Source: Verrucomicrobiaceae bacterium (lineage in GTDB: Bacteria; Verrucomicrobiota; Verrucomicrobiia; Chthoniobacterales; Chthoniobacteraceae). From it: a DNA stretch of 35,091 bases. Of this stretch, positions 7,966 to 32,142 are shown piece by piece (the stretch's first letter is position 1; every line of letters starts with the position of its first letter). The stretch covers positions 1-35,091 of the forward strand of contig SXWH01000001.1 in NCBI GenBank assembly GCA_005791535.1, in the 5' to 3' direction. Under the pieces are notes generated by a model. It did no database searches. It had not been told where the DNA came from and saw only the letters and a program-made list of their open reading frames with translations. The translations under genes and the position numbers were made by a program.

Positions 7966-9465
7966 TTACTTGCCAAAAAATCCCGGCGTCCACGTCCACT
8001 GCGGATGCCGGATGTAGGCGAGGGCCTCGGGAATGGTGAGGCCGGCCTTGCTCGCGACAGCGGTGCGGATGCGGTGATCGTTGAACTTCGCCAGCTCCGC
8101 GGGCGGTGGTGAGTAAAGGCGATCGTGCGGAACCTTCTGCCCGAGCAGCAGTGTGTAGAATCCGTCGAGCTGAAAGAGGCTGGTGGACGGCGGCAGAACG
8201 TCGAGCTGCGCAAACATCGACGGTCCGTTTTCGCGGTAGTGTTGCACGATGGATTCGGCACCGTGGAGCGCGACATCGCTCCGGCAGGCCTGCCAGAACG
8301 GCGTATCGAGCCGAGTGTTGAAACGGTAATGCACCGCGAGAAAGTCCCGGATTTCATCCCAGAGATTCCGGATGATGCGGTCGCACGATGCCTGCATGGT
8401 TGGTGAAATGCGGCAGTCGTTTTCCTCGAGCGCACCGGCGAGAAATCGAAGCGCCTGGCAGATGACGAAGATGGCCGTGGCTTCGAGCGGCTCGACAAAT
8501 CCGTGCGCATTCCCGACTGCGAAGACATTCCCGACCCAGCAGCGCCGGTAGCGTCCGGTGCGAAATTTTACGATGCGCGTGTTCTTCACGGACGGGTTCT
8601 TTTTCCGGAACTCCTGCTCAGCCTCATCGTCGCTGATGAATGCAGTGGAATACACGTAGCCGCGGTTGATGTGCTGCTCGTGTTCGATTTGCCATGCCCA
8701 ACCGGAGTCCATCGTCTCCGCGACAGTGTACGGGAGGATCGGCTCGGCGCCGCGTTCCCATCCACCGGCAACTGCACGGTCGCAAAAGAGCGCATCGGCG
8801 TAGCTGTCGAACGGCTCCTCCAGCGCCTTGCCGAGCAACTCGGAGCGGAAACCGCTGGCGTCAATGTAGAGGTCGGCGGTGAGGCGCTCGCCGGTGTTCA
8901 GCGTGAGCGAGGCGACTCCTTTTTCGCCGCGCTCCACGTGGTCCACCGTGGCTTCGGTGATCTCGATGCCGTGCTCCACGGCGATGCGCTCGAAATACTC
9001 CACCATCCATGCGTTCTCGATGTGGTAGGCGAAGTTGCGGCGAATGTCGGGCAGCCCGTTTTGAAGTCGCGCGAAGACTTTGCTGCGCGACATCAGCGCG
9101 GAGTTGATGTCGCAGTCCTCGAAGTCGTCCCACATGAAGTAGCCGTGCGTCTTTCGCACGCCCTCGAGTTGCGAAGCCATCTGCGGAGTGAACGTGTAGT
9201 TGAAATGCGAACGCGGTCCCCATTCAAACCGCACACCGAGTTTCCAGGTGGGACGCGCCTCGCGGTAGAAACGGGTTTGTTCAAGACCGAGGAAGCCGTG
9301 GAGGTGATACGGCAAATCCGACGTGCTTCCCTCGCCGACTCCAATGATTCCTATCTCGCGACTGCGCACGACGCGGATGCGCAGTTGCGGAAGTTTTATC
9401 TTGAGAGTGAGAGCGGAGAGGAAGCCGGCAGTGCCTCCGCCAAGGACGATGACGTCGCGGATCAT
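7966..9465 (-). CDS. Flavin-dependent tryptophan-halogenase family protein
   Basis: This 499-residue protein has the usual length for the PrnA/RebH family. The FAD-binding loop GGGTAG is at residues 9-14 and the family segment IIGVGEGSTSDL at 40-51. Lys75 in TWKLGVRF aligns with the catalytic lysine (Lys79 of PrnA) that directs hypohalous acid. DASG at 202-205 and VGNAHGFVEPLEAT ending at 330 match the FVEPLES/AT signature containing the conserved glutamate. The WxWxIP motif that marks halogenases reads WAWQIE at 256-261, with Glu instead of Pro. Such enzymes use FADH2 from a separate reductase to halogenate aromatic substrates. No reductase, NRPS or PKS gene is nearby. The gene lies 108 bases downstream of the CotH gene in the same direction. 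Family membership is clear; substrate and actual halogenation are unknown. Confidence 0.85.
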   Translation of the reverse strand: MIRDVIVLGGGTAGFLSALTLKIKLPQLRIRVVRSREIGIIGVGEGSTSDLPYHLHGFLGLEQTRFYREARPTWKLGVRFEWGPRSHFNYTFTPQMASQLEGVRKTHGYFMWDDFEDCDINSALMSRSKVFARLQNGLPDIRRNFAYHIENAWMVEYFERIAVEHGIEITEATVDHVERGEKGVASLTLNTGERLTADLYIDASGFRSELLGKALEEPFDSYADALFCDRAVAGGWERGAEPILPYTVAETMDSGWAWQIEHEQHINRGYVYSTAFISDDEAEQEFRKKNPSVKNTRIVKFRTGRYRRCWVGNVFAVGNAHGFVEPLEATAIFVICQALRFLAGALEENDCRISPTMQASCDRIIRNLWDEIRDFLAVHYRFNTRLDTPFWQACRSDVALHGAESIVQHYRENGPSMFAQLDVLPPSTSLFQLDGFYTLLLGQKVPHDRLYSPPPAELAKFNDHRIRTAVASKAGLTIPEALAYIRHPQWTWTPGFFGK

Positions 9466-14706: not shown

Positions 14707-14827
14707 AGTAAGGCCGCGAAATGTAAGCCGCAAATCCGGCGGCGCAACTTCTTATAGACCGGAGTTTCGGCTTGCCATACGCGCCTCCTACCACTCCCCT
14801 TCCGGGAGAACGAGAATTCGCATACCC
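14707..14827. promoter_or_regulatory. Divergent intergenic region between two large secreted-protein genes
   Basis: These 121 bases separate the minus-strand CotH gene from the plus-strand PEP-CTERM gene and must hold the promoters for both. The most AT-rich point is TCTATAAG, read on the minus strand near 14755, a possible -10 element for the CotH gene. I cannot assign a convincing -35 box. GGGAGAACGAG, about 20 bases before the PEP-CTERM ATG, is too far upstream to be a good Shine-Dalgarno site. Confidence 0.35.
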
Positions 14828-17800
14828 ATGAACATCAAACTTCGTCCCGCGGTCCTCGACCGCAGCTTCACCCGAATCTTCGCAGCCGCAATCGCATGTG
14901 TCTCCGCACACGCAGCAAATCTCACGTGGGATATCACTCCCGGCACCATCGGAACCGGCGACAGCGCCATCACCGGCGGTGCAGGAACGTGGGACCTCAC
15001 AAACGGCAACTGGACGACGGACGGCGGCGCGAACAACATCGCGTGGACCGATGGAAACAGCGCGATTTTTCAGGGAACAGCCGGTGTAGTAACGCTCGGT
15101 GCGCCGATTTCGGCGAATGCAATCACGTTCAACAGCGCTCACACCATCACGGGCGGCACGCTGACGTTGGGCTCGGCGACGCCAACTATCACCGGGAATG
15201 GCGTGCTCGGCGTCATCTCGGCCGTCGTCGCGGGGACGAATGGGCTGTCGCTGACCGCAACCGGCACAGCGGGCGTTTATCTCGATGGTGCGAACACCTA
15301 TTCGGGCGTCACGACGGTGAACTCCGGCTTCCTCGTTGCCCGGAATAATTCGGCGCTCGGCTCATCCGCGGATGGTACTGTTGTCGCAAGCGGCGGCACG
15401 CTCCAACTCGAGAATCTTGGGGGTGTCGATACGGTGATTTCTAACGAAGCGCTGACCATTTCCGGAACGGGCATGCTCGGGAATCGCGGAGCACTCGCAA
15501 GCTGGACCGGCAACAATACGTGGGGCGGTTCGGTGACGATGGCGGCAAATAGCAGCGTGTTTGTAAACGCCGGAACGCTCGCAATCAACGGCGTGGTAGG
15601 TGGTACGGGCTTCAATCTGAGCAAGACTGGCGCAGGCCAGCTCACGCTCGGTGGCGCGGCATCGAACACGTACACGGGCACGACGATTGTGGACAACGGC
15701 AACCTCGTGCTCGCGAAAACCGGCGGCGCTTTTGCGATCGTCGGGAATGTGCAGATGGGCAACGGCACTGCAAACCAGCCGAACCTGCGTATGGGAGGAA
15801 ACGAGCAATTCGGTCCGGGCGTGGTAATGACCTTCGCCAATCCCGCAGGGCAGTTCACCCGATTTGACCTTCTCGGCACGACCCAGACGCTCGCCGGTAT
15901 TTCGAATACCACCGGCACTGGTGTAATTCAGAACGGAGGAATCGGGGTCGGAAGCGCGTCGAATGCGACGCTCACGCTCAACACGGCGGCTAATTTTTCC
16001 TACAACGGTTACCTGCGGAATTTCGATAACGTAAACAGTGGCGGTACCCTGAACGTGGTCAAGATAGGCACCGGAAAGCAGACGTTCGCCGGAGCCAACG
16101 TGAACTACACCGGCACCACCACCGTAAGCCAGGGCACGCTCGCGCTGAGCATGACGACGAATTTCAACTCCGCGACTACGGTGGCCGCCGGAGCGGCGCT
16201 GGAGTTAAACGACACGGGAAATTTCGGGCAGGGACCGGCTGGGGCGACGGTCGCCCTCGGAGGAAATCTCGACCGCACAGGCGGCGTCGGTTGGCTGGTT
16301 TGGACCGGAAAAGTGAGCCCAACTGCGGCGACGGCCGCCATCAACTTGAAGAATGCAGGTGCCAATGCCGGCACAGGCTTGGGCTGGCTGTTTTTGGACG
16401 GCGGATTGGGATCGAGCGGAGCGCAGACGCTGACGATCAATCACACGCTCGCCGATGGCACGACACCGAACAACAACCTCGCAACCGTGCTTCGCAATAA
16501 CAACAGCACCTACACTGGCGCAATCACGGTCAACAACGGCTCGCTGGTGATCGCCGGCGGCGTGGCGCTGGGCACGCAACTCGCGAATACGGCAGTCACT
16601 TTGAACAATGCGACGCTGCAATTCGCGACCGTCTTCGCATCGACTCAAAATACCGCCAACAATCTCCAAAGTATTGCTGGAACGGGAACGGTGTCGCTTG
16701 GCAGTTCCACGCTGAACATCGGTCTTAACGATGCTTCCAGCACGTTCGCCGGCAACGTGACCGGTTCCGGAGGAATTGCAAAGACGGGGGCTGGCAATCT
16801 CGCGCTCAGCGGAAACGGTGTGGCTTACACCGGCGGGACAACCGTGAACGCAGGGACGATGAGTCTCACCGACTCGCGTCTCGTCGCGGGCGCGAAGACC
16901 GTCGCAGCGGGAGCGACGCTGGAGATCAATTCCTCCATCCCGTTTGCGACACGCTGGAACAACTCGGGGACGATTTCCGGCGCAGGAACGATCAACAAAA
17001 CGGGAGCCGGCGTCTTCGGAACGACGGGCGCGGTGAACTTCTCCGGCACGATCAATATCCTCGGCGGACGGCTTCACAACGATAACGTGACCGGCAACTG
17101 GAGCGGCTCCACTGCGGATGTGAACATCAGCGCCGGTGCGGTGCTCGATTTACGCGCAAACGATATTTACGTGGATGAATTGAACGGTCTGGGCGAGATT
17201 TGGAACTCCCAGCCCGCAGGCGGCGGCGACGTTCTTTTCGTCGGCGTGGCGAACGGCAGCAGCACTTACGGCGGCAACATCCTCGGCAATGCCTCGCAGG
17301 CCGCCGACAGCCCGAACGGCGCGGTACTTTCACTCACGAAGCGCGGAACAGGGACGTTCACACTCACCGGCGCGGGCAACATCTACAGCGGCGCGACGAC
17401 CGTGGAAAATGGCATCGTTCGGATCTCCGGCGGCGACAACCGTCTGCCGGCCGCAACGAACCTCACCGTAAACGGCGGCGCGACCTTTGGTGGCACGTTT
17501 GATCTGAACGGGCTGAATCAAACCGTCAGCGCGCTGAGCGGCGCGGCGGGCACAGTGCCCGGCACAGTCATCGGCAACGGAATCCTCACCGTGAATGGCG
17601 CGGTGGCAACGACCTTCGCCGGAAACATCACCGGCACGACTTCGCTTACGCGCGCTGGCACTGGCGTCACCGCACTCACCGGCGCGAGCACATTCAGTGG
17701 GCCGACGCTCATCACGGGCGGCGCGATTCGCGAAGCGGCAGCCGGATCGCTTTCGCCAAATTCCAACATTCAGTTCAACGGCGGCGTGCTTGAAGCGGGC

Positions 17801-20800
17801 TTCGCGGATTTTGCGCTCACGACCGGAACCGGAGGGGCGCAAGTGCAGTGGCTCGGAAACGGCGGATTTGCCGCGTTCGGCGCTCCGCGCAATGTGAGCG
17901 TCGACGGCGGAGGCACGCTGACCTGGAACTCCGGCAGCTTCGTTCCCACAGGCTCCAAACTGCTCTTCGGATCCAGCGCTGCGGACAATACGGCCACGCT
18001 CGTAAACAACCTCGACCTTGCCGGCGCGAACCGCACCGTCGAAGTGATCGGAGGTCCCGCCGCGATCGAAGGCGCGCTCGCAGGCACCGTTTCAAACGGC
18101 ACGCTCACCGTCCGCGGCACGAGTGGTTCGCTCGCACTCACCGGCCAGGCGACGGCGGATGTTGTTGTGGACAACTCGAATGCAGCGAGCACGAACATCA
18201 TGAACCTCTTGCTCAATCGCGCAGGCGGAAACGCAATCGCGGGTGGCCTGCGAATTGGTGCGACTGACAGTGGTCAATGGGCGACCGTCCGCCTTGGCGC
18301 GAACGACCAGATCGCGGATACGACGGTCGTGAATTTCGGCGCAGTCTCGGGAAGCTGGTCATATCTCAATCTCAACGGCTTCAACGAAACCGTCGCCGGC
18401 CTGAGCAGCCTCCCGGGCAAGGATGGCGGCGTGCTCCAACTCGTGGAAGGCGACGTCTCACCTGCGACGAACAGCACTCTCACCATCAATGTCGCCAGCG
18501 GTACTCAGAACTACTTCGGCCATATCCGCGACCGAGGCAACGGCCCGACAAACGACCCAGGCGGCAACGGACGCCTCGGCATTGTAAAAGAGGGCGCGGG
18601 AACGCAGGAACTCGTCACCTGGAACACCCAGGTCTGGACGGGGCCGACCACGGTAAACAACGGCACGCTCCGTCTCGGTCTTGGTGGTTCGACCGGCGGC
18701 GGCGGCACGCTTTCCTCGGCGACAACGATTGCTGCAGGCGCAACACTCGATGTGACGAACGCCTCGAACCGCAACTGGTGGTGGCACAACGGTGGAATCA
18801 CCGGTGCGGGGAACGTCGTGAAGAGCGGCGACAGCATCGTCAACTTGATCGGAGCCACCGTAAACTACACGGGCACGACGACCGTGAACTCGGGCATCCT
18901 GCGCCTCACTGACGCGACCGCGTTCGCGAGCAACGTCACCGTCAATGCGGGCGCGTGGCTTGAGGAAAACCGGACGACCGGCAGCGGAAATCTCGCAATT
19001 TCAATGACCGGCGCAGGCGGCTACATCAAGCAGGGCGCAGGCGAGACGATTATCCCGACACCGGTTTCCATCGCACAGGTCGCGTTGCGCGCAGGCTTGC
19101 TCACCGCGGGTGCGGACAACGTGTTCACTTCCGCTACGACGCTGTCGCAGGGCGGAAACAGTTCGCAAACTTTCAAGCTGAACGGAACCACGCAGACGGT
19201 CGGCGGTCTCGGTGGGCAATACGATTTCGGCAACCGCATCCTCGGTGGAAGCCCGACGCTGTCGTCGCTCACCGTGAATATCGCGGCCGGCCAGCAGACG
19301 TTCTACGGCGGCAAAATCGGCGACGTCGGAACGGATGAAAACAATCTCGGCATCACCAAAACCGGCGGTGGAACACTCGTCCTCAGCGGAACCGGCAGCT
19401 ACACCGGCGGCACGGTCATCGCCGGCGGAACGCTCCAACTCGGCGCGAGCACCACGATGCCTGTGAACCTCGCAAATCTCGGCATCTGGCTCGACGGCGC
19501 GGACCCGGAAGCCGATGGCAGTGCGCCCGCAGACGGCACACCGATTTCCGTTTGGAAGAATAAAGGCACGCTCGGTGCGACAGGCGATTTCAGCGCCGTG
19601 GTGGGCCGGGAGCCGAGCTACGGTGCCGCCGGAGCTGGCTTGATGAACGGGAATCCGACGGTCCGCTTTACAGCGGATGCAGTCGTCGGCTTCGGGAACC
19701 AGACGAATTATGATCGTCTCACCAACCCCATCAATCTCGCCAACGGTCCATCGACCATCATCGTCGCGGGCCGCTATGCAGGCGCCACGGTGGACGAACG
19801 CAAACGCCTCGTCTCCGGGCTCGCAAACAACTACCTCCTCGGCTGGTGGGACAACGGCGAGAACACTGCCTATTACCAGAACGGATTCGCACCGGGGAAA
19901 GCAGCCGGAACGACAAACCCGCACGTCTATACGAGCGTGATGCGCGGGGACGGAATCGGCGAAACGTACGGCAATGCACTTGGACGCATGGGCGCGCTCG
20001 GCAACGCGTTCGGTCCGAATGGTCTCGCGCTTGGCGGCGGCAACACTTCCGGTGTGCAGGAATACTCAACCGGCGACATCGGCGAGCTCATCATCGCACC
20101 GGTCGCCATGAGCGACGCGGACCGCGGTGCAATCGAAGCCTACCTCGTGCGGAAATGGACCGGCTTTATGCCCGCCAACCCGCTCCCGACCACCGGCACG
20201 CTTTCACTCACCGCAAGCGGCGCGACGCTCAACATCAACGGCGTCACGCAGACGACCGGCAGTATTTCCGGTGTCGCCGGAACAAGCATCGCGCTCGGCG
20301 GCGGCTCACTCACCGCGGGAAATGACAACGGCACCGCGCAATTCGACGGCATCATCTCCGGCGCGGGCAATCTCGCGAAAACCGGCACCGGCACCTGGAC
20401 GCTGGGCGGCGCGAACACCTATTCCGCAGTCACGCGTGTCCAGAATGGAACGCTCGAACTCAGCGGCGGCGCGGACCGGCTCCCTACCAGCACCACGGTA
20501 ACGCTCGGTTCGTCCACAACCAGCGGAACACTCAAGCTCAACGGCAACAATCAGACCGTTGCCGGCCTTTCCTCGACGACCAGTCCCGCTGGCGCAAACA
20601 GCCGCATCATCAACGGCTCGCCCACGGCTGCGGTACTCACGCTGAACATCGCGAGCGGCACGAACAATTACTCCGGCAAACTCGGCGGCAGCACGCCGGA
20701 CGAAAACAACCTCGGCTTCGTCAAGCAGGGAACCGGAACGCTCGTGCTAGGGCAGTCGAGCACCTACACCGGCAGCACGGTCATCAGCGGAGGCACAGTG

Positions 20801-22291
20801 CAACTCGGTGGTGCCCGCGCATTGCCGACGAGCGCAGCCGTCTGGCTCGACGCGACCGACGGCGGTACCATCAACACCAGCGCGGGCGTCATCACCAGCG
20901 TCACAAACAAAGGAACGCTCGGCGCAAGCGGCAACTTCACCGCGCCGGCTGGGAACGAACCATCGCTCGCGTTCGAAGCCAGCATGGGCGGCAATCAGGT
21001 CATCCGGTTCGACGCGCTCACACCCGCAGGAAATGATCAGCTCAACAACGGGCTCAACTTCGCAAACGACGTCACAGTCGCCTACATCGGGCGGCTGGCG
21101 GGCACATCGAACCAGCGGCTTCTCTCCGCCAGCGGGAACAACTGGCTTCTCGGACCGTGGGGAGGAAACGGCGAGACTGCATTTTTCAACAACGGCTTCC
21201 TTTACAACGGCGGACTCGCGTCCACCGACACGCTGCCGCGCTTCCACATCGGCACCATCGCAGCGAATGGCGCAGCCGCCTATTACTCAAACGGCACGCT
21301 CCTCGGCACCGGCAGCGGTGTCGGGCCGAGCAGCCTGCGCCTTGGCGGCGGCTACCTCGCGAACGGGACGGAATTTGCCAGCGGCGATATCGGCGAGCTT
21401 TTCGTCTTCAACGGCGTTCTCTCCGATGCCCAGCGCACGCAACTCGACAGCTACATCGCTCGGAAGTGGTTCGGCCTCGGAAATACCGACGTGCTCCCGG
21501 CGACAACGGCAGTCAGCCTCAGTGGAGGCAGCACGCTCGATGTGAACGGCGTGAACCAAACCATCGCGAGCCTCGCCGGCGATGCGGGCACGACGGTCGC
21601 GCTCGGCAGCGGAACACTCACCGTCGGCAATGCCACAAGCACGACGTTCAGCGGCGCGATCAGCGGAAGCGGCACGCTTTCGAAAATCGGTTCAGGAACG
21701 CTCACGCTCGACGGCATCAGCGCGATCATCGGCAATGCCTACGTTCAAGTCGGCACGCTCAATGTCACCGGCACGCTCGGCGCTTCGCTCATTGAGGTGC
21801 AGAACGGTGGAACCCTCGGCGGAAATGGAAGCATCGGCGCGGACGTCTATGTTCTCGGTGGTGGAAAGCTGTCGCCGGGCACAAGCCCCGGTACACTCAC
21901 CGTGACCGGCACCACGTTGGATTTCAGCGATGCGGTGAACGCGACGAACACACAGTCGCTCGTCTTTGAACTCGGCACCGCAAGTGATCGCGTCAACCTC
22001 ACCACCGGCCAGTTTGGAATTGGAACCGGTGTTCTTGAGTTCGACGACTTCGCATTCAGCGCGGGCAGCGGATTCGGCCCGGGCACTTACACGCTATTCG
22101 ACAGCACGCAGGATGTCTTCGGTACGCTCGGCAGCTCGCTCAGCGGAACCGTCGGCGGATTCAGCGCAACGATCGCGCTGGCCGACACGAACAACGACAT
22201 TGTTTTGAACGTAGTCCCCGAACCCGGCAGCGCCACGCTGCTGCTCGGCGGCCTCGCGATGCTGGCCGGACGCCGCCGCCGGAAAGCGTAA
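14828..22291 (+). CDS. Giant PEP-CTERM protein with autotransporter-associated beta-strand repeats and two LamG-like domains
   Basis: The ATG at 14828 gives 2487 residues with a signal peptide (MNIKLRPAVLDRSF, hydrophobic core, cleavage after AHA at 29). The frame is open to 14429, but that extension has no signal peptide. The body holds about 13 copies of the PATR-type repeat, each with a KxGxGxLxLxG strand followed by YTGxTxVxxGTL, for example IAKTGAGNLALSGNG and ITKTGGGTLVLSGTG. These fold as a passenger-type beta-helix. LamG-like domains sit at about residues 1546-1777 and 1996-2214 (GIWLDGADPEADG, AVWLDATDGG, GDIGELxxF). The C-terminus is a classical PEP-CTERM signal: VVPEPG, the hydrophobic TLLLGGLAMLAG, and basic RRRRKA. 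No beta-barrel translocator is present, so despite the repeat name it is not an autotransporter. It is the expected substrate of the exosortase at 26105-27163. Confidence 0.9.
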   Translation: MNIKLRPAVLDRSFTRIFAAAIACVSAHAANLTWDITPGTIGTGDSAITGGAGTWDLTNGNWTTDGGANNIAWTDGNSAIFQGTAGVVTLGAPISANAITFNSAHTITGGTLTLGSATPTITGNGVLGVISAVVAGTNGLSLTATGTAGVYLDGANTYSGVTTVNSGFLVARNNSALGSSADGTVVASGGTLQLENLGGVDTVISNEALTISGTGMLGNRGALASWTGNNTWGGSVTMAANSSVFVNAGTLAINGVVGGTGFNLSKTGAGQLTLGGAASNTYTGTTIVDNGNLVLAKTGGAFAIVGNVQMGNGTANQPNLRMGGNEQFGPGVVMTFANPAGQFTRFDLLGTTQTLAGISNTTGTGVIQNGGIGVGSASNATLTLNTAANFSYNGYLRNFDNVNSGGTLNVVKIGTGKQTFAGANVNYTGTTTVSQGTLALSMTTNFNSATTVAAGAALELNDTGNFGQGPAGATVALGGNLDRTGGVGWLVWTGKVSPTAATAAINLKNAGANAGTGLGWLFLDGGLGSSGAQTLTINHTLADGTTPNNNLATVLRNNNSTYTGAITVNNGSLVIAGGVALGTQLANTAVTLNNATLQFATVFASTQNTANNLQSIAGTGTVSLGSSTLNIGLNDASSTFAGNVTGSGGIAKTGAGNLALSGNGVAYTGGTTVNAGTMSLTDSRLVAGAKTVAAGATLEINSSIPFATRWNNSGTISGAGTINKTGAGVFGTTGAVNFSGTINILGGRLHNDNVTGNWSGSTADVNISAGAVLDLRANDIYVDELNGLGEIWNSQPAGGGDVLFVGVANGSSTYGGNILGNASQAADSPNGAVLSLTKRGTGTFTLTGAGNIYSGATTVENGIVRISGGDNRLPAATNLTVNGGATFGGTFDLNGLNQTVSALSGAAGTVPGTVIGNGILTVNGAVATTFAGNITGTTSLTRAGTGVTALTGASTFSGPTLITGGAIREAAAGSLSPNSNIQFNGGVLEAGFADFALTTGTGGAQVQWLGNGGFAAFGAPRNVSVDGGGTLTWNSGSFVPTGSKLLFGSSAADNTATLVNNLDLAGANRTVEVIGGPAAIEGALAGTVSNGTLTVRGTSGSLALTGQATADVVVDNSNAASTNIMNLLLNRAGGNAIAGGLRIGATDSGQWATVRLGANDQIADTTVVNFGAVSGSWSYLNLNGFNETVAGLSSLPGKDGGVLQLVEGDVSPATNSTLTINVASGTQNYFGHIRDRGNGPTNDPGGNGRLGIVKEGAGTQELVTWNTQVWTGPTTVNNGTLRLGLGGSTGGGGTLSSATTIAAGATLDVTNASNRNWWWHNGGITGAGNVVKSGDSIVNLIGATVNYTGTTTVNSGILRLTDATAFASNVTVNAGAWLEENRTTGSGNLAISMTGAGGYIKQGAGETIIPTPVSIAQVALRAGLLTAGADNVFTSATTLSQGGNSSQTFKLNGTTQTVGGLGGQYDFGNRILGGSPTLSSLTVNIAAGQQTFYGGKIGDVGTDENNLGITKTGGGTLVLSGTGSYTGGTVIAGGTLQLGASTTMPVNLANLGIWLDGADPEADGSAPADGTPISVWKNKGTLGATGDFSAVVGREPSYGAAGAGLMNGNPTVRFTADAVVGFGNQTNYDRLTNPINLANGPSTIIVAGRYAGATVDERKRLVSGLANNYLLGWWDNGENTAYYQNGFAPGKAAGTTNPHVYTSVMRGDGIGETYGNALGRMGALGNAFGPNGLALGGGNTSGVQEYSTGDIGELIIAPVAMSDADRGAIEAYLVRKWTGFMPANPLPTTGTLSLTASGATLNINGVTQTTGSISGVAGTSIALGGGSLTAGNDNGTAQFDGIISGAGNLAKTGTGTWTLGGANTYSAVTRVQNGTLELSGGADRLPTSTTVTLGSSTTSGTLKLNGNNQTVAGLSSTTSPAGANSRIINGSPTAAVLTLNIASGTNNYSGKLGGSTPDENNLGFVKQGTGTLVLGQSSTYTGSTVISGGTVQLGGARALPTSAAVWLDATDGGTINTSAGVITSVTNKGTLGASGNFTAPAGNEPSLAFEASMGGNQVIRFDALTPAGNDQLNNGLNFANDVTVAYIGRLAGTSNQRLLSASGNNWLLGPWGGNGETAFFNNGFLYNGGLASTDTLPRFHIGTIAANGAAAYYSNGTLLGTGSGVGPSSLRLGGGYLANGTEFASGDIGELFVFNGVLSDAQRTQLDSYIARKWFGLGNTDVLPATTAVSLSGGSTLDVNGVNQTIASLAGDAGTTVALGSGTLTVGNATSTTFSGAISGSGTLSKIGSGTLTLDGISAIIGNAYVQVGTLNVTGTLGASLIEVQNGGTLGGNGSIGADVYVLGGGKLSPGTSPGTLTVTGTTLDFSDAVNATNTQSLVFELGTASDRVNLTTGQFGIGTGVLEFDDFAFSAGSGFGPGTYTLFDSTQDVFGTLGSSLSGTVGGFSATIALADTNNDIVLNVVPEPGSATLLLGGLAMLAGRRRRKA
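19169..20527 (+). repeat. Copy 1 of a ~1.3-kb intragenic duplication in the PEP-CTERM gene
   Basis: This copy starts at TFKLNGTTQTVGGL and runs through DENNLGITKTGGGTLVLSG, a LamG-like domain, a PATR repeat and the next spacer. The copy at 20528 follows in the same order: TLKLNGNNQTVAGL, DENNLGFVKQGTGTLVLG, then a LamG-like domain. Similarity is seen at protein level with many substitutions, so the duplication is old. Confidence 0.7.
20528..21773 (+). repeat. Copy 2 of the ~1.3-kb intragenic duplication
   Basis: This is the second copy of the unit described at 19169. Both copies place a LamG-like domain after GGTLQLG/GGTVQLG and follow it with LPTTGTLSL/LPATTAVSL and an NGVTQT/NGVNQT segment. 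The second copy is about 110 bases shorter, mainly in the LamG part. Confidence 0.7.
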
Positions 22292-25371: not shown

Positions 25372-26115
25372 CTACTTCAGCTTCACGGTGTCCTTCACCG
25401 CCTTCGGCGAGAAGGTGACGATGAATTCGCGGAGCATTTCGTCCACAGTCGCATCAACTTCGCCTTGTTTCGAGGGGTCGCGGGCTGTGGGGACGGTGGC
25501 GGTTACCGTGATGTAGGCCCAACGCTGGTTGTAGCCGGAGAGGAGCCGGTCTTTCATGTCGATGAACGTCCGCTCGAAGTGCGAACCGGTCGTCTCGGTG
25601 TGACCGACAAACCAATAGTAGCTGAGCATCCGGCCCGTGCCCGCGCGGCCGGCATCGTCTTTGAAAAGCTTCGTGTTATAGAGCCGCGTCGCGGTGAATG
25701 AACCCCGTCCGGGAACGTTGATCGCAACCTCGCGCTTGTCCGCGATGTTCCAGCCCTGCGTCGGCAGGCAGCGCTCAGCGCGGTGGATGCTGGTATTCAT
25801 GTCCTGCCCGGAAAGGACGACAGAGAGGGTGACCCCAGTGTAGCTGGGCGGGATTTCACCTTTCTTGCCACGGAAGTTACCGAGCGTGGTGTAGGCTTTG
25901 CGTGCGAAGCCGGTGTCTTCTCCGAGGGTGTCGCGCTCCTTTTTGGTGACTTCGAGATCCTCGCCACGCCACGCGCCGACGTACTCGGGCATTGCCGCCA
26001 TTTCGACGACGCCGAGCGGCTGGTGGCTGAGGCCTTTTGGCAGCACGAAAATGAGGCTGAGGCCGAGCGCGACCACGGCGAGGAGCACCGATGCGCGTTT
26101 GGAATCAGTAATCAT
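25372..26115 (-). CDS. epsI: EpsI-type exosortase-associated protein (DUF3485)
   Basis: This 247-residue protein starts at the ATG at 26115, which overlaps the 3' end of the exosortase gene by 11 bases and implies translational coupling. One membrane segment lies at about residues 8-25 (SVLLAVVALGLSLIFVLP). The family core is present: a PEYVGAWRGEDLEV-type strand near the N-terminus, then SIHRAERCLPTQGWNI, the HxxxxCxPxxGW signature of EpsI, and later SYYWFVGH. EpsI proteins are encoded next to, or fused to, exosortases in bacteria that make PEP-CTERM proteins and exopolysaccharide. Their exact biochemical role is unsettled. Here the two are separate genes. It converges on the NlpC-like gene across 35 bases without an evident terminator. 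Confidence 0.88.
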   Translation of the reverse strand: MITDSKRASVLLAVVALGLSLIFVLPKGLSHQPLGVVEMAAMPEYVGAWRGEDLEVTKKERDTLGEDTGFARKAYTTLGNFRGKKGEIPPSYTGVTLSVVLSGQDMNTSIHRAERCLPTQGWNIADKREVAINVPGRGSFTATRLYNTKLFKDDAGRAGTGRMLSYYWFVGHTETTGSHFERTFIDMKDRLLSGYNQRWAYITVTATVPTARDPSKQGEVDATVDEMLREFIVTFSPKAVKDTVKLK

Positions 26116-27163
26116 AGGAAATGGGGCCTTTCGCGGGCTTTTCGGGCGCACCGGCTGCGGGCGATGCCGGGCCGCCGGGCTTCGGGGGCTGTTTGCCAAA
26201 CCACTCGCCGAGCTTCGCCTTCAGGCCCGACCAGTCGCGGTCGAGCACATTGCCAAGGCCAACCATGGCGAGGACGGCAACGGGGAAGAAGACGAAGCCG
26301 GACCAATCGTGATAGAGTCCGGTCGCCGTCTTCGGGTCCAGGAAGCGCGCGAAAATGACGACGGAGAACACGCGGGCGAAGTTTCCGAATAGGGCGAAGA
26401 CAATCGCGCTGCCAAAGAGCACCCACTTTTTCAGCGCCGTGCGCATGTTGAACTCGGCGTAAAGCGCGGAGAGCATGAGCATGGCCATGAGCGACCGGAT
26501 GCCCGAGCAGCCGCCAGCGACTTCCATCGGCTCGAAACGGCCATCGGGTGAGCGAAGCATCGCGCCATCGACGATGATTGGAATTCCACAAATCGTGGAC
26601 ATTACGCGAATCGCCGTAGCCGTCTTCGCCTGAAGGCCGGCGGTGTTTTGCACAACGCTGCCCATCGGCGTCATGAAGAGCAGAAACAGGCACGGGAAAA
26701 TAAAAAGCCGCGCGACGTTTTTCCCCCACAAATACATAACCGTGCCGTAAATGAGCATCGGCAGCGCGAATATGGCGAGTCGCGGCTGAAGCATGCGGAC
26801 GGAGAGGACGTAGGCGACGATGCCTGCGCCGACCCACCACAGGCCGGCGTTCGAGGGCTCTTTCACAGCCGCCCAGAGCTGCTCCCGCTTGAGGTGCAGG
26901 AGAACGAAGAAAATCGGGATGATTGCCCAGCAGTGCACCTGATCGTTTTCCTCGTTCCAGCTCGCCGCGATCCATTGCGCGGCGGACTGGCTGCCGAGCA
27001 TGAAGGGTTTTGGCAGGAAGTAGAACAGCAGCACAACGAGCGCGAGCGCTCCGAGAATCGCAGTGGAAACCGGGTTCGATTTCAGCGCAGCGAGGATGGC
27101 TGCATTCGTCGCCTGCGGAGGCGCAGCTTCGGCGTCAGGTTGTTGCCGGGGTGTTTCGGACAT
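26105..27163 (-). CDS. Exosortase (PEP-CTERM sorting transpeptidase)
   Basis: This 352-residue integral membrane protein has about eight hydrophobic segments. The three catalytic residues of the family are in place: Cys219 in GGCSGIRS, Arg264 in NFARVFS and His285 in LYHDWSG. The exosortase is thought to cut PEP-CTERM proteins near the PEP motif and hand them to the export or glycosylation route. The ATG at 27163 (MSETPRQQP) was chosen; an in-frame ATG at 27202 would add 13 residues and cannot be excluded. Longer extension would run into the tRNA gene. The cytoplasmic C-terminal tail is Pro/Ala/Gly-rich (about 325-345). It is co-transcribed with epsI. No polysaccharide genes adjoin it, unlike many exosortase loci, but a matching substrate is encoded at 14828-22291. 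Confidence 0.92.
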   Translation of the reverse strand: MSETPRQQPDAEAAPPQATNAAILAALKSNPVSTAILGALALVVLLFYFLPKPFMLGSQSAAQWIAASWNEENDQVHCWAIIPIFFVLLHLKREQLWAAVKEPSNAGLWWVGAGIVAYVLSVRMLQPRLAIFALPMLIYGTVMYLWGKNVARLFIFPCLFLLFMTPMGSVVQNTAGLQAKTATAIRVMSTICGIPIIVDGAMLRSPDGRFEPMEVAGGCSGIRSLMAMLMLSALYAEFNMRTALKKWVLFGSAIVFALFGNFARVFSVVIFARFLDPKTATGLYHDWSGFVFFPVAVLAMVGLGNVLDRDWSGLKAKLGEWFGKQPPKPGGPASPAAGAPEKPAKGPISYDY

Positions 27164-27261: not shown

Positions 27262-27346
27262 TGGTGCTCGCGAGAGGACTCGAACCTCCACAGGTCTCCC
27301 TATATGATCCTGAGTCATACGCGTCTGCCAATTCCGCCACGCGAGC
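27262..27346 (-). tRNA. tRNA-Leu(CAG)
   Basis: On the minus strand the acceptor arms GCTCGCG and CGCGAGC pair over 7 bp, followed by discriminator A and an encoded CCA (27262-27264). The anticodon stem TATGA/TCATA encloses the loop CTCAGGA, giving anticodon CAG, which reads CUG leucine codons. A long variable arm (about TAGGGAGACCTGT) marks it as a class II tRNA. The T arm has GGAGG, loop TTCGAGT, and CCTCT with one G-U pair. The D-arm region has GGCGGAATTGGCAGACGCG as usual for tRNA-Leu. All arms are intact. Confidence 0.96.
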
Positions 27347-27500: not shown

Positions 27501-27983
27501 TCAGGCAGGCGTCGCGTCGCGTCGGAAGAGCGATTGCACGTCGTCCGGATTCATGTCGCAAAGGTCGAGGCCCATGTTGCCGCGGGCGTTGGCCACTTTG
27601 AGCTGTTCGGCAATCGCCTTCACCACGGGTGCTGCGTAGTACTTCATGGAGCCAACCGTCTGCTGCGTGCCGAAAACGAGGACAAGAAGCAGGTGTTCGT
27701 CGATGTTCAGGATGAGCGTACTGTAGGTTTCGCCCTGCTGATACATGCTGCTGAAGTTGTGCTCATTGACCAACTGCGCCATGAAGTGCGTGGCGTTGAA
27801 CGCGTTGGAGCCGAGGGTCGCGAGGGTCACAGTATCGAGCGATTCGCTGGAACCGTACTGGTGGATAAGGTAGCCAGCTTTCTCGACGATCATCGAAAGC
27901 ATCGCCTCGCTTTTCCTGACCAAATCCCGAAGGACCTGGTCGAAGAAATTCATGTCTTCTTCGATGAGTTGTGGAAATGCCAT
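27501..27983 (-). CDS. MglB-like roadblock/LC7 protein
   Basis: This 160-residue protein has the roadblock pattern. An N-terminal helix (MNFFDQVLRDLV) leads to strand SMIVEKAGYLIHQYG, with the conserved D/K-x-x-G turn. A long helix over about residues 55-72 follows, then strands SSMYQQGETYSTLILNID and HLLLVLVFG, and the closing helix VGSMKYYAAPVVKAIAEQL. In Myxococcus, MglB is the GTPase-activating partner of MglA and sets cell polarity; Ragulator-type and Rags-like pairs in other organisms use the same fold. The gene follows mglA by 13 bases and is the last gene of a three-gene operon ending in a strong terminator. GAP activity for this copy is inferred from position and fold. Confidence 0.85.
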   Translation of the reverse strand: MAFPQLIEEDMNFFDQVLRDLVRKSEAMLSMIVEKAGYLIHQYGSSESLDTVTLATLGSNAFNATHFMAQLVNEHNFSSMYQQGETYSTLILNIDEHLLLVLVFGTQQTVGSMKYYAAPVVKAIAEQLKVANARGNMGLDLCDMNPDDVQSLFRRDATPA

Positions 27984-27996
27984 GGTGGTTGCCGGG

Positions 27997-28596
27997 TTAT
28001 TTGTTGAGATACTTGTGGATAAGCATCTTTGTGATCATGTTCAGGGTCTCAAAAACTCCCTCGGTCTTGCTCGCAACCGCTTCGAAATACGGGACGTGGA
28101 CGTCGCGGTTGTTGAGCACGTATTCGAGATACTCGACCGGCGCGGCGTCGGGCGTGTCGCGCTTGTTGTACTGGATGACGTACGGAATGTCGTCGAGGTT
28201 GAGGTTGAGAGACTTCAGATTGTCCACCATGTGGCCGAAAGTCTCAATATTCTCGCCCATCTTGTCGTACTGACTGTCGGCGACAAATACGATGCCATCG
28301 ACTCCGCGGAGCACGATCTGGCGGGTCGCGTTGTAGATGACCTGACCGGGCACGGTGAACAGCGAGAACTTCGTCTTGAAGCCCTTGATGGTCGTGGCTT
28401 CGAGCGGGAAGAAATCGAAGAACAATGTGCGATCACTGCTCGTTGCGAGCGAGGTCATCTTGCCCTTGGCGGCCGGATCGGGCACCTGGACGTTTTCGTG
28501 AACCTGCTCGAGGTTGGTGGTTTTACCGCTCTTTGCAGGACCGTAATAAACGATCTTGAGCTGGAGCTCCTTGGTTGCGCGGTTGATAATGGCCAT
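27997..28596 (-). CDS. mglA: MglA-type Ras-like small GTPase
   Basis: This 199-residue protein is about the length of Myxococcus MglA. The P-loop GPAKSGKT is at residues 19-26. The switch-1 segment LATSSDRTLFFDFFPLE is at 50-66 and closely resembles the MglA signature. G3 reads TVPGQ at 81-85, with Thr where Ras proteins have Asp, a hallmark of the MglA family. VFVADSQ is at 103-109 and the base-specificity motif NKRD at 144-147. The protein should cycle between GTP and GDP states in the cytoplasm and localise to cell poles or surface machinery. It lies between two roadblock-domain genes, 21 bases after the upstream one and 13 before the downstream one, so the GTPase and its probable regulators are made together. 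No clear Shine-Dalgarno site precedes the ATG. Confidence 0.95.
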   Translation of the reverse strand: MAIINRATKELQLKIVYYGPAKSGKTTNLEQVHENVQVPDPAAKGKMTSLATSSDRTLFFDFFPLEATTIKGFKTKFSLFTVPGQVIYNATRQIVLRGVDGIVFVADSQYDKMGENIETFGHMVDNLKSLNLNLDDIPYVIQYNKRDTPDAAPVEYLEYVLNNRDVHVPYFEAVASKTEGVFETLNMITKMLIHKYLNK

Positions 28597-28617
28597 GATG
28601 TTTTTTGGGCTGGATGG

Positions 28618-30201
28618 TTATTGGTTTTGTGCGGCCAGCTCGTTGCAAACGAGGTGGAGTCCCGCAGGCAGGCTTTCCCCGGATTTACCGAGGGCGGCGA
28701 AAAAGAGTTTCCCGTTCCGGAAGAAACGGACAGTGCCGTGGTCGGTGTCGAGCGTGACGCAGTTGGTCGCGCCAAGCTGCATCTCGCCGGCGTACTGATC
28801 CATGCGGCCGAAAATTTGCGGCATGAAAGCAGCGAACGTATCCGCCGAGTATCCCTCCGGAAGACGCTGCGTGACGACAAGCCCTTCGCCGAGCGCGACA
28901 ACGACGCCGGCGACGCCCGGAAGCGCGCAGGTAAGCTTCACCAGCTCGTTCGGCGCCCAGTCTGTCTTGTCAGGCATCGCGAACAGCTCGCGGAGGTTCA
29001 TCGGGTCGCTCTTCGCGGCAACCGAAAGCGCAGCCGGCACCAGAGCAGGGGCCGCTACAACAGCGGGCGCCTCTTGCGCGAGCACAGCGGGCTGCGGCGC
29101 GACCTCGGCAGCTGGCCGGGCGACCGGCGCAGGCTCCTGGGAGGCGGGCATCGCGGCTGCAGCCGCGGGAGCGCGACCGGCAGCCGGGCCAAAGAAATCG
29201 GGAAGGCTCGTATCCGCCTGTGCCGCGCGCTTTCTGGCACCGGTCGCAGCGACGAACGCAGGAGCTACGATTTTCAGCGGAAGCGTAAACTGGGTATCAT
29301 CGGGGATATTCAGCACTCCCGTCGGCGGCGGAGTAAGCCAGCGGCGGATCTGCTCCCACGAGAATGCCACACGGCCCTTTTGGAGCAACGGACCGACTTC
29401 GCTTGCGGGGATCAGGATTCTGGAATCGCCGGGGAGCACCGACAGCTCGTTGCGGAACGATTCCTGCCAGCCGGCGGCGACTTCGACGAGAAGAAGCGAA
29501 AGTTCGCCGCTGAGATTGAGCTTTTCCTGCGCCGACGATGCCGGTGCCGGTGCCGGTGCCGGAGGCTGGCTGGCTGGCACGGGCGCGATGCCGGGCATCT
29601 TCAGCTTCCGCTCCTGCGCGGCAGGTTGAACAGGAGGCTCCGGCTGCCGGGCGGCGGCCAGCGGCGACGGTAGCGGTGCTGCCGGCTTCGGGGCCGGGGC
29701 GGGCGCGGCAACGTCCTGCGGATTCGCCACATGGCGCGAGTTCTGGTCGTCAAACAGACCGACTGCATCATCGGGCACTTCGTAGCTGCGCTGGTCATCG
29801 CGCCGTTTCAGTATCGTCGGGTTCACCGTCTTGAAGACCTCGGCGAGCGGGACATCCACCATCCGCTTGTCCTCAGCCTGCTCTTTGCGGAATGTCCCGC
29901 TCGGAGCCTGGCGGTAGAGACTCGCAAGTGACATGCGCACCGTCCCGCTTGGCAGTTGTTTCATGATCGCGGCGACTGGAAGCACGACCTTCACGTCCGA
30001 TGCGGGCATTTGATTCACCTGCTCTTTCAAGTCCGCAGGAAACCGATCCAAAATCGCGCGGAGCGACAACGAAGCAACGGCTACACCGCTGTGGGCCTCG
30101 GGATGACGGGAAGCCGGCGTCTCCGCGACTTTCGTGCGGACGGCGGTTTTTCCGGCGTGCTCACCATTCTTGGTGAAGAGTTTTTTCAGGAAGTTGAACA
30201 T
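28618..30201 (-). CDS. Two-module protein with C-terminal roadblock-like domain, first gene of the mglA operon
   Basis: I do not recognise this 527-residue protein as a whole. After the N-terminus MFNFLKKLF come two related modules, residues 44-150 and 231-337, aligned by VVLP/ILIP, L..G.V..S, P.G and VPL/LPL positions. They are joined by Pro/Ala-rich linkers (about 160-222 and 338-395). The C-terminal 400-527 has roadblock/LC7 character: helix NELVKLTCAL, strand GVVVALGEGLVVTQ, helix FAAFMPQIFGRMDQY, strands TNCVTLDTDHGTVRFF and KLFFAALG, and a closing helix. Short roadblock proteins bind MglA-type GTPases, so this domain may too. No signal peptide or membrane segment is seen, so it is probably a cytoplasmic scaffold. 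It is the promoter-proximal gene of the operon with mglA and the MglB-like gene. The module function is unknown. Confidence 0.75.
   Translation of the reverse strand: MFNFLKKLFTKNGEHAGKTAVRTKVAETPASRHPEAHSGVAVASLSLRAILDRFPADLKEQVNQMPASDVKVVLPVAAIMKQLPSGTVRMSLASLYRQAPSGTFRKEQAEDKRMVDVPLAEVFKTVNPTILKRRDDQRSYEVPDDAVGLFDDQNSRHVANPQDVAAPAPAPKPAAPLPSPLAAARQPEPPVQPAAQERKLKMPGIAPVPASQPPAPAPAPASSAQEKLNLSGELSLLLVEVAAGWQESFRNELSVLPGDSRILIPASEVGPLLQKGRVAFSWEQIRRWLTPPPTGVLNIPDDTQFTLPLKIVAPAFVAATGARKRAAQADTSLPDFFGPAAGRAPAAAAAMPASQEPAPVARPAAEVAPQPAVLAQEAPAVVAAPALVPAALSVAAKSDPMNLRELFAMPDKTDWAPNELVKLTCALPGVAGVVVALGEGLVVTQRLPEGYSADTFAAFMPQIFGRMDQYAGEMQLGATNCVTLDTDHGTVRFFRNGKLFFAALGKSGESLPAGLHLVCNELAAQNQ
29191..29511 (-). 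repeat. Module copy B within the roadblock scaffold gene
   Basis: This segment encodes residues 231-337. It aligns with copy A without gaps over about 30 residues starting at DSRILIPASEVG (259), with identical D, P, L, G, V, S and R positions. A gap of about three residues follows, and the PL strand and the (V/L)PD segment are then in register. Confidence 0.6.
29539..29562. repeat. Hexanucleotide tandem repeat TGCCGG x4
   Basis: There are four exact copies of a 6-base unit, coding for the PAPAPAPA part of the Pro/Ala linker on the minus strand. GGCTGGCTGGCT, a short tetranucleotide run, follows at about 29564. Copy-number change by slippage would add or remove PA pairs without breaking the frame. 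Confidence 0.85.
29752..30072 (-). repeat. Module copy A within the roadblock scaffold gene
   Basis: This segment encodes residues 44-150, containing DVKVVLPVAAIMKQLPSG from residue 69 and VDVPLAEVF from residue 115. See copy B at 29191-29511 for the alignment. Confidence 0.6.
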
Positions 30202-30382
30202 TTGGCTGAATGGGCTGGATTTGCAAAAAGGAGAAGTAGCAGCCGCAATGCCAACCCGCGTGGATGATCGAGAAATCGTGAATCATCACTCCGGATTCCA
30301 TCCGGCGCGGGGCTTGCTTTAAAAGTCATACGCAGCGCTTGTGCCTGCAGACCGCACCAATATAAACGTTCTTACTCGCATC
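30202..30382. promoter_or_regulatory. Divergent control region of the MglA/roadblock island
   Basis: This 181-base gap lies between the minus-strand roadblock/mglA operon and the plus-strand response-regulator operon, so both promoters should be here. Two small inverted repeats are visible. GATGAT...ATCATC lies around 30263-30287, and CCGGA-TTCCA-TCCGG follows at about 30291-30305. Either could be an operator, for example for a regulator acting on both operons, but they are short. No convincing sigma-70 boxes were found. Confidence 0.4.
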
Positions 30383-31438
30383 ATGGGTCATCGCCAAAAA
30401 ATTCTCATTCTCGACGACGAGCAGGACCTCCTCGAAATCTATCAGGAAATTCTGGCACGCCTTCCCTCGCAGCCTGAAATCCGAACCGCCAGCAAGGGGA
30501 CCGAGGCGATCGCAGCGCTTGAGGCGGAACCGTTTGCCCTCCTGCTGGTGGACCTCAATATGCCGCAGATGGACGGCTTTCAGGTGCTCGCCATCGTGCG
30601 TCGCCGGTTCCCGGCGCTCCGCACCGTGGTAATGACCGGCGCGACTGACGAAGACCTCCGCGGCCGCGCATACCGGGTCGGCGTAGACCTTTACATCGAA
30701 AAGCCGAAGACAGGTCGAGAGATCATCTTCTTCGTGGACTGCATTGAATCGCTGCTCGAACGCGAGAGCCAGGGTGGCTTCCGCGGAGTACAGAGCAAGA
30801 CCTTGCTCGATATCATCCAGCTCGAGTGCCTCACGCAAAACACCTGTGTGCTACGCATCACCAGCGAGAACGGCGAAGGCAGAGTATGGATTCAAAAAGG
30901 CGAGATCGTGGACGCCGCCGTCGAGGACAAGGCGGGCAAGGAAGCCATCGTGGAAATGCTCGCCTGGACGGCGGGGAACTTCGAAGTGCTCCCTTACGGC
31001 CTGCCGCGGCCGCGCACAATTTTCATGAACTACGAATCGCTGCTCATGGAAACCGCGCAATCCATGGACGAGGCGAACGAGGAATCCGCCGCCGAAAAAC
31101 CCACGCCCGAGACCATTCTCGCGTCGTTTGCGCGGTTCACCGGCGTACAGTTTGCCATCGCGGTGGACTCGGGCGAACACATGAAATACGAGCACTGGGG
31201 CGCCGACGAACCGGCCCCTATCGCGTTGTGGATCCGTGAGAACACCTCCGCCTTCAAAGCCCTCGGCGAAAAACTCGGATGCGGCGAACTGCTCGATGCC
31301 GAAACGCTCGGCAGCCAGCGGCACCTTTCCATCATCTCAGGTGACGAAGAGGCCCTCGGCATCGGCTTCACCCGCGCACTCGGCCTCCGCCAGATCCGCG
31401 AAACCCTCAAGCAAATCGAAGCAAAATGGGCATACTGA
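30383..31438 (+). CDS. Response regulator: receiver, PATAN (DUF4388) and roadblock-like domains
   Basis: The ATG at 30383 gives 351 residues starting directly with the receiver strand (GHRQKILILDDEQ). A GTG at 30341 would add 14 residues. The receiver has Asp11/Asp12, phospho-acceptor Asp57 in LLVDLNMPQMDG, Thr85 in VMTGAT and Lys107 in EKPK, so it should be phosphorylatable. Residues about 131-207 match the PATAN/DUF4388 pattern: SKTLLDIIQLECL, a strand ending in RVWIQKGEIVDA, then KEAIVEMLAWTAGNFEVLP. The C-terminal 250-350 looks like a divergent roadblock domain (QFAIAVDSGEHMKYEHWG, RHLSIISGDEEALGIGF and a final helix). There is no DNA-binding domain, so output is probably by protein-protein contact. 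The next gene overlaps its 3' end by 13 bases. Confidence 0.88.
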   Translation: MGHRQKILILDDEQDLLEIYQEILARLPSQPEIRTASKGTEAIAALEAEPFALLLVDLNMPQMDGFQVLAIVRRRFPALRTVVMTGATDEDLRGRAYRVGVDLYIEKPKTGREIIFFVDCIESLLERESQGGFRGVQSKTLLDIIQLECLTQNTCVLRITSENGEGRVWIQKGEIVDAAVEDKAGKEAIVEMLAWTAGNFEVLPYGLPRPRTIFMNYESLLMETAQSMDEANEESAAEKPTPETILASFARFTGVQFAIAVDSGEHMKYEHWGADEPAPIALWIRENTSAFKALGEKLGCGELLDAETLGSQRHLSIISGDEEALGIGFTRALGLRQIRETLKQIEAKWAY

Positions 31439-32142
31439 AGCCATTCCACCGCACCCAGGTCCCGATTGAGGCGAAGCGCATCCCGTCGGGATGTTTCGCC
31501 GTGAATCGCGCCGGCGCCATTGTCACCTCCACACTGCCGGGCTGGTTCTCCCAAAAGCTCACGGTTGAAATCGGCCGCGTTGTGGCGGAAGCCATCCGTT
31601 CCGCGCAGGAAACCGACCTCGCAGTCGCCGAGCTCCACATCAATTACTCGGGAATCGAAATCACCGCCCGCGACCTTCGCGGTGGTGCGCTCGTCTTCCT
31701 GCGACCCCGCAACAACACTTTTATCCGTCCGGAACTCTCTTCATCCATGAACTTCAAGAACATCGACGAATTCATCCTCCACATGGAGGCAAACATCGAA
31801 TGCTGGAAGCAATTCAACCAGTACATCAACCTCGCGCGGGACAAAAAGTTCACGCCTGAGGACGAAGCCCAATTTCTCGATCTCAAGAGCCTTCTCACGC
31901 AAGGCAGCGAGTCCATCGCCGCTGCGGAAGTCAAAGGCGGGCCACGCAAGGAGGAAATCCTCGCACTTTTCGCCGCAGCTCCGAGTCTGCGTTTCCTGTC
32001 GGATATGGGTGACGCAATTCCGACCGTGGAAGGCCAGTGGCACCGCATCTATCTCGCGCTTCAATCCCTGCTCGGCCAGCTCAAGGTCCAGCAGAACAAA
32101 GCCGAGGAGTCGAAGGGCTGGAGCCTCTTCGGCCGCAAGTAA
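31426..32142 (+). CDS. Roadblock-like protein with helical C-terminus
   Basis: This 238-residue protein overlaps the end of the response regulator gene by 13 bases, so the two are translationally coupled. Residues about 20-95 fit a roadblock fold: strands GCFAVNRAGAIVTSTLP, a helix KLTVEIGRVVAEAIRSAQ, and strands AVAELHINYSGIEITARDL and GGALVFLRP. Residues 100-238 are mainly helical and charged, with a FKNIDEFILHMEANIECWKQ helix, a DLKSLLTQG stretch and a basic end (WSLFGRK). I know no named family for the full protein. Position suggests it is the partner of the receiver protein or of the MglA GTPase encoded divergently. No signal peptide or membrane segment is seen. Confidence 0.7.
   Translation: MGILKPFHRTQVPIEAKRIPSGCFAVNRAGAIVTSTLPGWFSQKLTVEIGRVVAEAIRSAQETDLAVAELHINYSGIEITARDLRGGALVFLRPRNNTFIRPELSSSMNFKNIDEFILHMEANIECWKQFNQYINLARDKKFTPEDEAQFLDLKSLLTQGSESIAAAEVKGGPRKEEILALFAAAPSLRFLSDMGDAIPTVEGQWHRIYLALQSLLGQLKVQQNKAEESKGWSLFGRK

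Follow-up and report, generated by a model that had tools for sequence, protein, structure and literature searches.

Introduction

Two kinds of regulators are known to steer type IV pili, each in different bacteria: the small GTPase MglA and the response regulators that carry a PATAN domain. Myxococcus MglA recruits PilB via SgmX (PMC11580455) and serves gliding as well as pili (PMC9481161), while in Synechocystis PATAN domains bind the extension motor PilB (PMC10519157, PMC7690835). We describe here a five-gene island that encodes both an MglA/MglB pair and a PATAN regulator with a roadblock-like end, at positions 27501-32142 of a stretch of 35,091 nucleotides from a Verrucomicrobiaceae bacterium (contig SXWH01000001.1, assembly GCA_005791535.1), which we call the window and which is contig C174 of a host assembly of 5.16 Mb and 86.6% completeness. 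The literature on MglA, roadblock and PATAN proteins and on Verrucomicrobiota pili, as represented by open-licence papers and mostly by their titles and the starts of their abstracts, yielded no description of this island, and according to our sequence analysis it is a previously undescribed form of MglA/MglB module. On balance we favour the view that a phosphorylation signal reaches the type IV pilus motors through this module. Because the island adjoins genes for these motors in some relatives, its probable role is to control the place or the time at which surface pili work.

The Myxococcus xanthus module (MglA, MglB, MglC, RomR, RomX and RomY) resembles the island in having an MglA with an arginine finger and a TVPGQ motif, an MglB, a second roadblock level and a receiver protein as input, and its MglA acts on pili by PilB recruitment, as we propose an action on pili for the island. 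A preliminary description of the window had set the island against a Myxococcus system with one MglB and separate inputs, a picture that has to be corrected, since MglC is a second Myxococcus roadblock protein and belongs to a RomR/MglC/MglB complex that is broken by MglA-GTP (PMC10329633). The differences lie elsewhere. In the island the receiver and a roadblock-like domain share one protein, with PATAN between them, and one locus holds four roadblock-type domains, a scaffold built of two copies of a domain we call R and one roadblock, and a conserved helical domain, p5b. Moreover, in Myxococcus the response-regulator partners of MglA are encoded away from mglA (PMC4316618), whereas the island encodes both together.

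Other systems share parts of this architecture. The cyanobacterial PATAN-CheY regulators PixG, PixE and LsiR also combine a receiver with PATAN and are linked to pilus direction and PilB; the island protein differs in its order (receiver, PATAN, then the roadblock-like domain) and in being encoded with MglA and MglB. Actinobacterial conservons (CvnA-D) are likewise operons of a small GTPase, an MglB-type roadblock and a two-component part (PMC13343842), yet in conservons the GTPase is of Group 2 and comes with a histidine kinase-like protein, and the island has a receiver and Group 1 motifs. Group 3 MglA systems contain MglA, one or two MglB proteins and a protein with a receiver-like region, but their MglA has GTPGQ and is without the intrinsic arginine (PMC4316618), where the island MglA has Arg56 and TVPGQ. 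Eukaryotic Ragulator-Rag, with several roadblocks around small GTPases and possible membrane anchoring, is offered as an analogy on the basis of the roadblock fold, and the comparison has already been drawn for MglC/MglB (PMC10329633).

Organisation of the island

Two divergent operons face each other across an intergenic region of 181 bases (30202-30382), and the five frames and the gap were found just as the preliminary description placed them. Leftward, on the minus strand, run the scaffold gene (28618-30201, 527 residues), mglA for a Ras-like GTPase (27997-28596, 199 residues) and mglB for an MglB-like roadblock protein (27501-27983, 160 residues). Rightward, on the plus strand, runs the gene of the receiver-PATAN-(roadblock-like) response regulator (30383-31438, 351 residues, phospho-acceptor Asp57), which starts at an ATG within the listed GTG frame, followed by the gene of a 238-residue protein (31426-32142), whose start overlaps the regulator end by 13 bases.

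The mglA product has MglA 3t12 as its best match in the PDB (phmmer, E 1.2e-60) and carries GPAKSGKT (G19-T26), R56-T57, TVPGQ (T81-Q85) and NKRD (N144-D147); the P-loop, R56, T57, TVPGQ and NKxD are complete in 81 of 81 aligned MglA rows. An arginine beside the G2 threonine together with TVPGQ is given as the feature of Group 1, and GTPGQ without an intrinsic arginine as that of Groups 2-5 (PMC4316618), so that by its motifs the island MglA has the Group 1 set including the intrinsic arginine. In the text of the same source Verrucomicrobia are named once, for Group 5, and PATAN genes are noted near some Group 1 and Group 5 genes, in neighbourhoods that vary widely. The mglB product matches Pfam Robl_LC7 (E 2.8e-7) and, over residues 7-155 with the C-terminal extension included, finds MglB 6izw as its best PDB entry (phmmer, E 1.9e-11); in the narrower NCBIfam MglB equivalog model it reaches 51 bits, below the cut-off of 200. 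Response_reg and DUF4388/PATAN were both matched by Pfam in all 47 regulators scanned, and D11, D57 and K107 are invariant in the 47 aligned, which bears out the earlier statement that the MglA motifs and the receiver aspartate are intact. The alignments took part of the rows: 47 of 66 for the regulator, 46 of 74 for the scaffold, 39 of 63 for p5b.

Conservation among Verrucomicrobiota

An MglA scan of the species-genome collection gave 413 relatives, and the results below cover the best 80 by MglA similarity; most of these loci come from metagenome bins, and record titles may misname the organism. All five genes stand in the expected orientation at 66 of the 80 loci, counted as tblastn matches, with a divergent gap of varying length, and mglB adjoins mglA in all 66. 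The gene order is therefore not private to this genome, as a comparison across Verrucomicrobiota had been proposed to decide. Every frame is uninterrupted and of the usual length in 52 of the 66; in the other 14 at least one frame is clipped, broken, fused or of odd length (for instance the regulator of L037 and the scaffold of L055). Nine of the 14 loci without all five genes end at a contig edge. One bearer of the whole island (L057) is the Chthoniobacter flavus Ellin428 record, a named strain and not a metagenome bin, which we take to be an isolate. MglA and the PATAN regulator hence stay together in many Verrucomicrobiota loci.

Of 24 genomes of the family, 13 have this MglA together with p5b and 11 have neither, and in none does one occur alone; ten of the 13 bearers belong to one genus, and one genome scored as lacking this MglA (G015) has a 35%-identical one. 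In a quick MglA tree, which came with long-branch warnings, the window MglA falls among those of the 80 selected loci, most of which bear p5a/p5b and are from other Verrucomicrobiota (SH-aLRT 97), and apart from the MglAs of its own order that are linked to pilB. This placement, taken together with presence in 13 of the 24 family genomes, points to a possible horizontal gain or repeated loss of the window-type MglA.

In other classes mglB was found at 16 of 16 mglA loci, a scaffold-like protein at ten and a PATAN gene nearby at nine, one of these PATAN proteins being MshEN-REC-PATAN. Six same-class loci gave weak matches to the R domain (E 3e-2 to 6e-6), two of them a weak match to MglB, and a PATAN gene was found in none. 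At L166, L168, L169 and L174, in genomes of the family, a divergent MglA about 30-36% identical to that of the window has a separate R-domain and/or roadblock-like protein encoded ahead of it, and R-roadblock with MglA may therefore be a two-gene unit of wider occurrence; at L170 and L171 no such protein was found.

Evidence for four roadblock-type domains

The proposal of one GTPase packaged with up to four roadblock-type proteins is borne out at the level of domains: Pfam, AlphaFold2, Foldseek and profile comparisons support four in the island, namely MglB, the scaffold end, p5a (the first half of the 238-residue protein) and, as the least certain, the regulator end. The fold is thus not confined to the 160-residue MglB-like protein, since the scaffold end and p5a are also assigned to it.

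For the C-terminal domain of the scaffold (28621-29004, minus strand) Pfam gives Robl_LC7 at residues 419-492 (E 1.3e-5, 25.3 bits against a cut-off of 23) and, at E<=1, in 44 of 46 aligned members (best 2.2e-10); its profile finds the PDB roadblock 7f8f at E 3.4e-8. The 238-residue protein matched no Pfam family at E<=1, and Robl_LC7 is absent among the 25 of 29 families listed for the 78 members scanned. Its first half, p5a (residues 22-94, 31489-31707, plus strand), is nevertheless predicted by AlphaFold2 as two strands, a helix and three strands, with a core pLDDT mostly of 92-96 per ten-residue block and lower ends. The 50 Foldseek matches listed are roadblock, Ragulator and MglB entries or short dynein/axoneme chains (best E 2.3e-5, TM by target 0.42-0.66), the latter presumably roadblock light chains, and the p5a profile finds the PDB roadblock 7yh1 at E 3.8e-4. 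We therefore consider p5a to have, as modelled, the roadblock fold in its bb-a-bbb core; the full fold has flanking helices, which p5a is without.

The regulator end (residues ~245-350, 31115-31432, plus strand) is modelled as helix, two strands, helix, three strands and helix with pLDDT about 90, and this is the order of the roadblock fold. Its profile has the roadblock 7f8f as best PDB match at E 0.025; Robl_LC7 appears in 2 of 47 regulators (best E 0.011, its place within the protein not being shown), and Foldseek with the whole regulator model listed response regulators in its 50 matches, the receiver dominating. It is because the Pfam and profile scores are weak, and the assignment rests on predicted topology, that this domain is the least certain. 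Hence the receiver and PATAN of the protein described earlier as receiver-PATAN-(roadblock-like) are confirmed, and its third part is a candidate.

Shallow profiles missed even the similarity of MglB to the scaffold roadblock, and the comparison was redone with deeper ones, distant rows being added to the scaffold roadblock, MglB, PATAN, R1 and R2 profiles, with the regulator end and p5a left unchanged. By hhalign the scaffold roadblock profile then matched the regulator end with P 4e-4 (probability 33-35%), p5a with P 9e-4 and MglB, the known roadblock, with P 2.6e-3, while the four roadblock profiles gave P>=0.016 against six controls, the best control being p5a-R1 at 0.016. The pairs MglB-regulator end (P 0.015-0.02), MglB-p5a (0.017-0.043) and regulator end-p5a (~0.07-0.075) were no better than the controls, and the probability between roadblock profiles never exceeded 35%. 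The predicted models leave the domain arrangement unfixed (pTM 0.40 for the regulator, 0.56 for the 238-residue protein).

Two conserved parts without a family name

The scaffold had been described as a two-module roadblock protein; in fact it consists of an MFNFLKKLF N-terminus, two copies of a different domain joined by proline/alanine-rich linkers, and the one roadblock. The copies, R1 (residues ~30-160, 29722-30114) and R2 (residues ~225-345, 29167-29529), both on the minus strand, match each other by hhalign at 98.9% with E 1.2e-17 and gave no convincing sequence match in Pfam or the PDB. A roadblock nature of R1 and R2 was rejected, as their profiles did not match those of the roadblocks.

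The 238-residue protein, described before as a second roadblock-like protein, retains that character in its p5a core but not as a single protein, for it is a fusion. Its halves are two genes, p5a of about 100 and p5b of about 130 residues, in 51 of 64 loci and one gene in 13, so that one ancestral protein was rejected, and on the quick tree the fused state needs one change. The split is unlikely to stem from a frameshift error, since it recurs in 51 loci with each half conserved, and the junction is an ATGA stop-start overlap in 22 of the 51. The p5b domain (residues 113-233, 31762-32124, plus strand) is predicted by AlphaFold2 as five helices and has 62% mean column identity over 39 rows; no convincing family was found for it, the best E being 0.006 in one member among the 25 of 29 families listed for the 78 members.

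In G030, a relative at the level of the order, the gene immediately after a PATAN gene is a p5b homologue (E 8.5e-14), while mglA is on a different contig of that genome, and therefore PATAN and p5b may form a pair of their own. In a sample of 288 genomes of the phylum p5b occurs in two, which says little on its spread because only the MglA of the window exceeds 62% identity there. The R domain and p5b are thus two conserved parts without a family name, defined here.

Association with type IV pilus motor genes

Motor genes adjoin MglA loci of this kind in three arrangements: mglA-mglB-pilT, pilB-scaffold-mglA-mglB and mglA-mglB-pilB. In ten of the 80 loci mglB is followed on its own strand by a PilT match that starts no more than 181 bases away, and the one such PilT scanned as a representative exceeds the curated PilT cut-off; by our own estimate, based on nine PilT-family matches in the window's genome of 5.16 Mb, well under one such neighbour per 80 loci would be expected by chance. 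Of nine same-order loci of the type that lacks p5, six (L136, L137, L138, L160, L161, L162) have a pilB-like gene directly beside the scaffold, two (L164, L165) end at a contig edge and L163 is without a pilB-like gene. In other classes a pilB-like gene follows mglB in two of 16 loci (L139, L140). Five PilB-like proteins scanned and one beside mglB fit TIGR02538 best, all under its cut-off; of the eight pilB-like genes that adjoin a scaffold or mglB, those scanned (L137, L160, L140) behave in this way.

Around the divergent MglAs of the family, PilB homologues 74-78% identical to that of L137 lie just upstream of the GTPase gene in L170 (430 bases) and L171 (237 bases), and in L174 a PilB homologue stands just upstream of the R-domain protein. 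When the divergent MglA of L170 was searched in the window's genome, the window's own MglA was the sole match. Genes for PilB-like, PilT and PilM proteins lie elsewhere in this genome. PilT-family ATPases are multiplied in the group: most of 38 relatives show 7-12 matches each.

Proposed mechanism and alternative readings

We suggest that MglB would act as the GTPase-activating protein for MglA, and that phosphorylation of Asp57 would change the binding of the PATAN-roadblock part of the regulator to MglB or to the scaffold roadblock. MglA-GTP and PATAN could then jointly recruit or gate PilB and PilT, setting where or when pili extend and retract, with the R domains and p5b as putative adaptor parts. 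As receiver, PATAN and the roadblock-like domain reside in one chain, phosphorylation could directly set both the MglA state and the choice of motor. The complex might be kept at the membrane by the short N-termini of the scaffold (MFNFLKKLF) and p5a; this anchoring is a guess, because their hydrophobic moments do not stand out from those of other proteins.

We may even imagine, as a possible and rather doubtful extension, a membrane platform resembling Ragulator, with mixed dimers of MglB, p5a and the roadblocks of scaffold and regulator stacked around one MglA and reordered by receiver phosphorylation so that PATAN and MglA-GTP load PilB or PilT. If this were true, the myxobacterial MglA and the cyanobacterial PATAN routes to the pilus motor would merge in one complex and the R domain would be a new motor-adaptor family. 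A locus that encodes MglA and a PATAN regulator with a roadblock-like end makes such a joint complex testable. It may be added that two PATAN proteins are on the candidate list of the SgmX study (PMC11580455).

A number of observations weigh against a pilus role. No pilus gene adjoins the island within the window. The ten pilT loci fall in one 16-row clade of the MglA tree and therefore may reflect one event, and in 14 of 16 other-class and three of nine same-order loci (two of these three ending at an edge) no PilB or PilT match was obtained at E<=1e-20. Of 38 relatives 37 have PilT, and the 11 family members that lack this MglA are all among the 37; pili therefore do not need the island, and PilT presence was discarded as a profile that discriminates nothing. 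In L034, L047, L050, L071 and L110 at least 2.2 kb are available upstream of the scaffold and do not contain the regulator operon; in L050 a receiver-PATAN gene lies on the other side, downstream of mglB, and the genome of L034 has the regulator and 238-residue genes 41 kb away. Finally, a gene of the UppP type is a commoner neighbour than pilT, standing beside p5b in 27 of the 80 loci by clustering; it was identified by family in L060, and the 26 other loci carry a frame of the same blastp cluster.

Some of these facts would suit an island that controls general cell polarity, gliding or another polar machine, with pilus genes as merely frequent neighbours. Myxococcus MglA, which serves gliding too (PMC9481161), lends itself to such a reading, as do the missing pilus neighbour in the window and the 70 of 80 loci without a PilT match within 181 bases, some of which end at a contig edge. 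We regard it as unlikely, for pilT or pilB adjoins in three different arrangements, and PATAN points to pili in cyanobacteria (PMC10519157, PMC7690835).

Less probable again is a loosely linked signalling cluster in which MglB alone acts on MglA and the other roadblocks are general dimerisation parts. Roadblock domains can indeed serve as platforms that do not activate a GTPase, the regulator end and p5a have diverged past reliable Pfam detection, and their profiles do not stand out against that of MglB; however, the packaging is kept in 66 of 80 loci, and the joint presence or joint absence of MglA and p5b across all 24 family genomes does not speak for a loose link. A service in cell-envelope or surface-layer assembly appears the most improbable of these possibilities. 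The exosortase and EpsI genes just downstream of mglB in the window and the UppP neighbours would argue for it, but the available sequence around the 80 loci and the distant loci gave no match at E<=1e-5 to the window's exosortase, EpsI, P450 and Nif3, and on this ground an exosortase or surface-layer role was rejected, while UppP, a housekeeping enzyme of cell-wall lipid, may be a passive neighbour. Of the polarity or surface-assembly module suggested before, the linkage to pilT and pilB in some relatives favours a polarity or pilus role, and the exosortase neighbours give surface assembly no support.

Other genes of the window

Downstream of mglB lie the exosortase gene (26105-27151, minus strand) and the EpsI-like gene (25372-26199, minus strand). 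The exosortase open frame runs back over a tRNA-Leu gene (27262-27346), and because of this the true start is probably later. A protein of 2620 residues (14429-22291, plus strand) carries nine passenger-associated repeats as well as a PEP-CTERM sorting motif and may be a substrate of this exosortase. On the minus strand the window also encodes a 1719-residue protein with Lamin Tail, laminin-G-like and CotH kinase domains (9574-14733) and a tryptophan halogenase-like protein (7966-9465).

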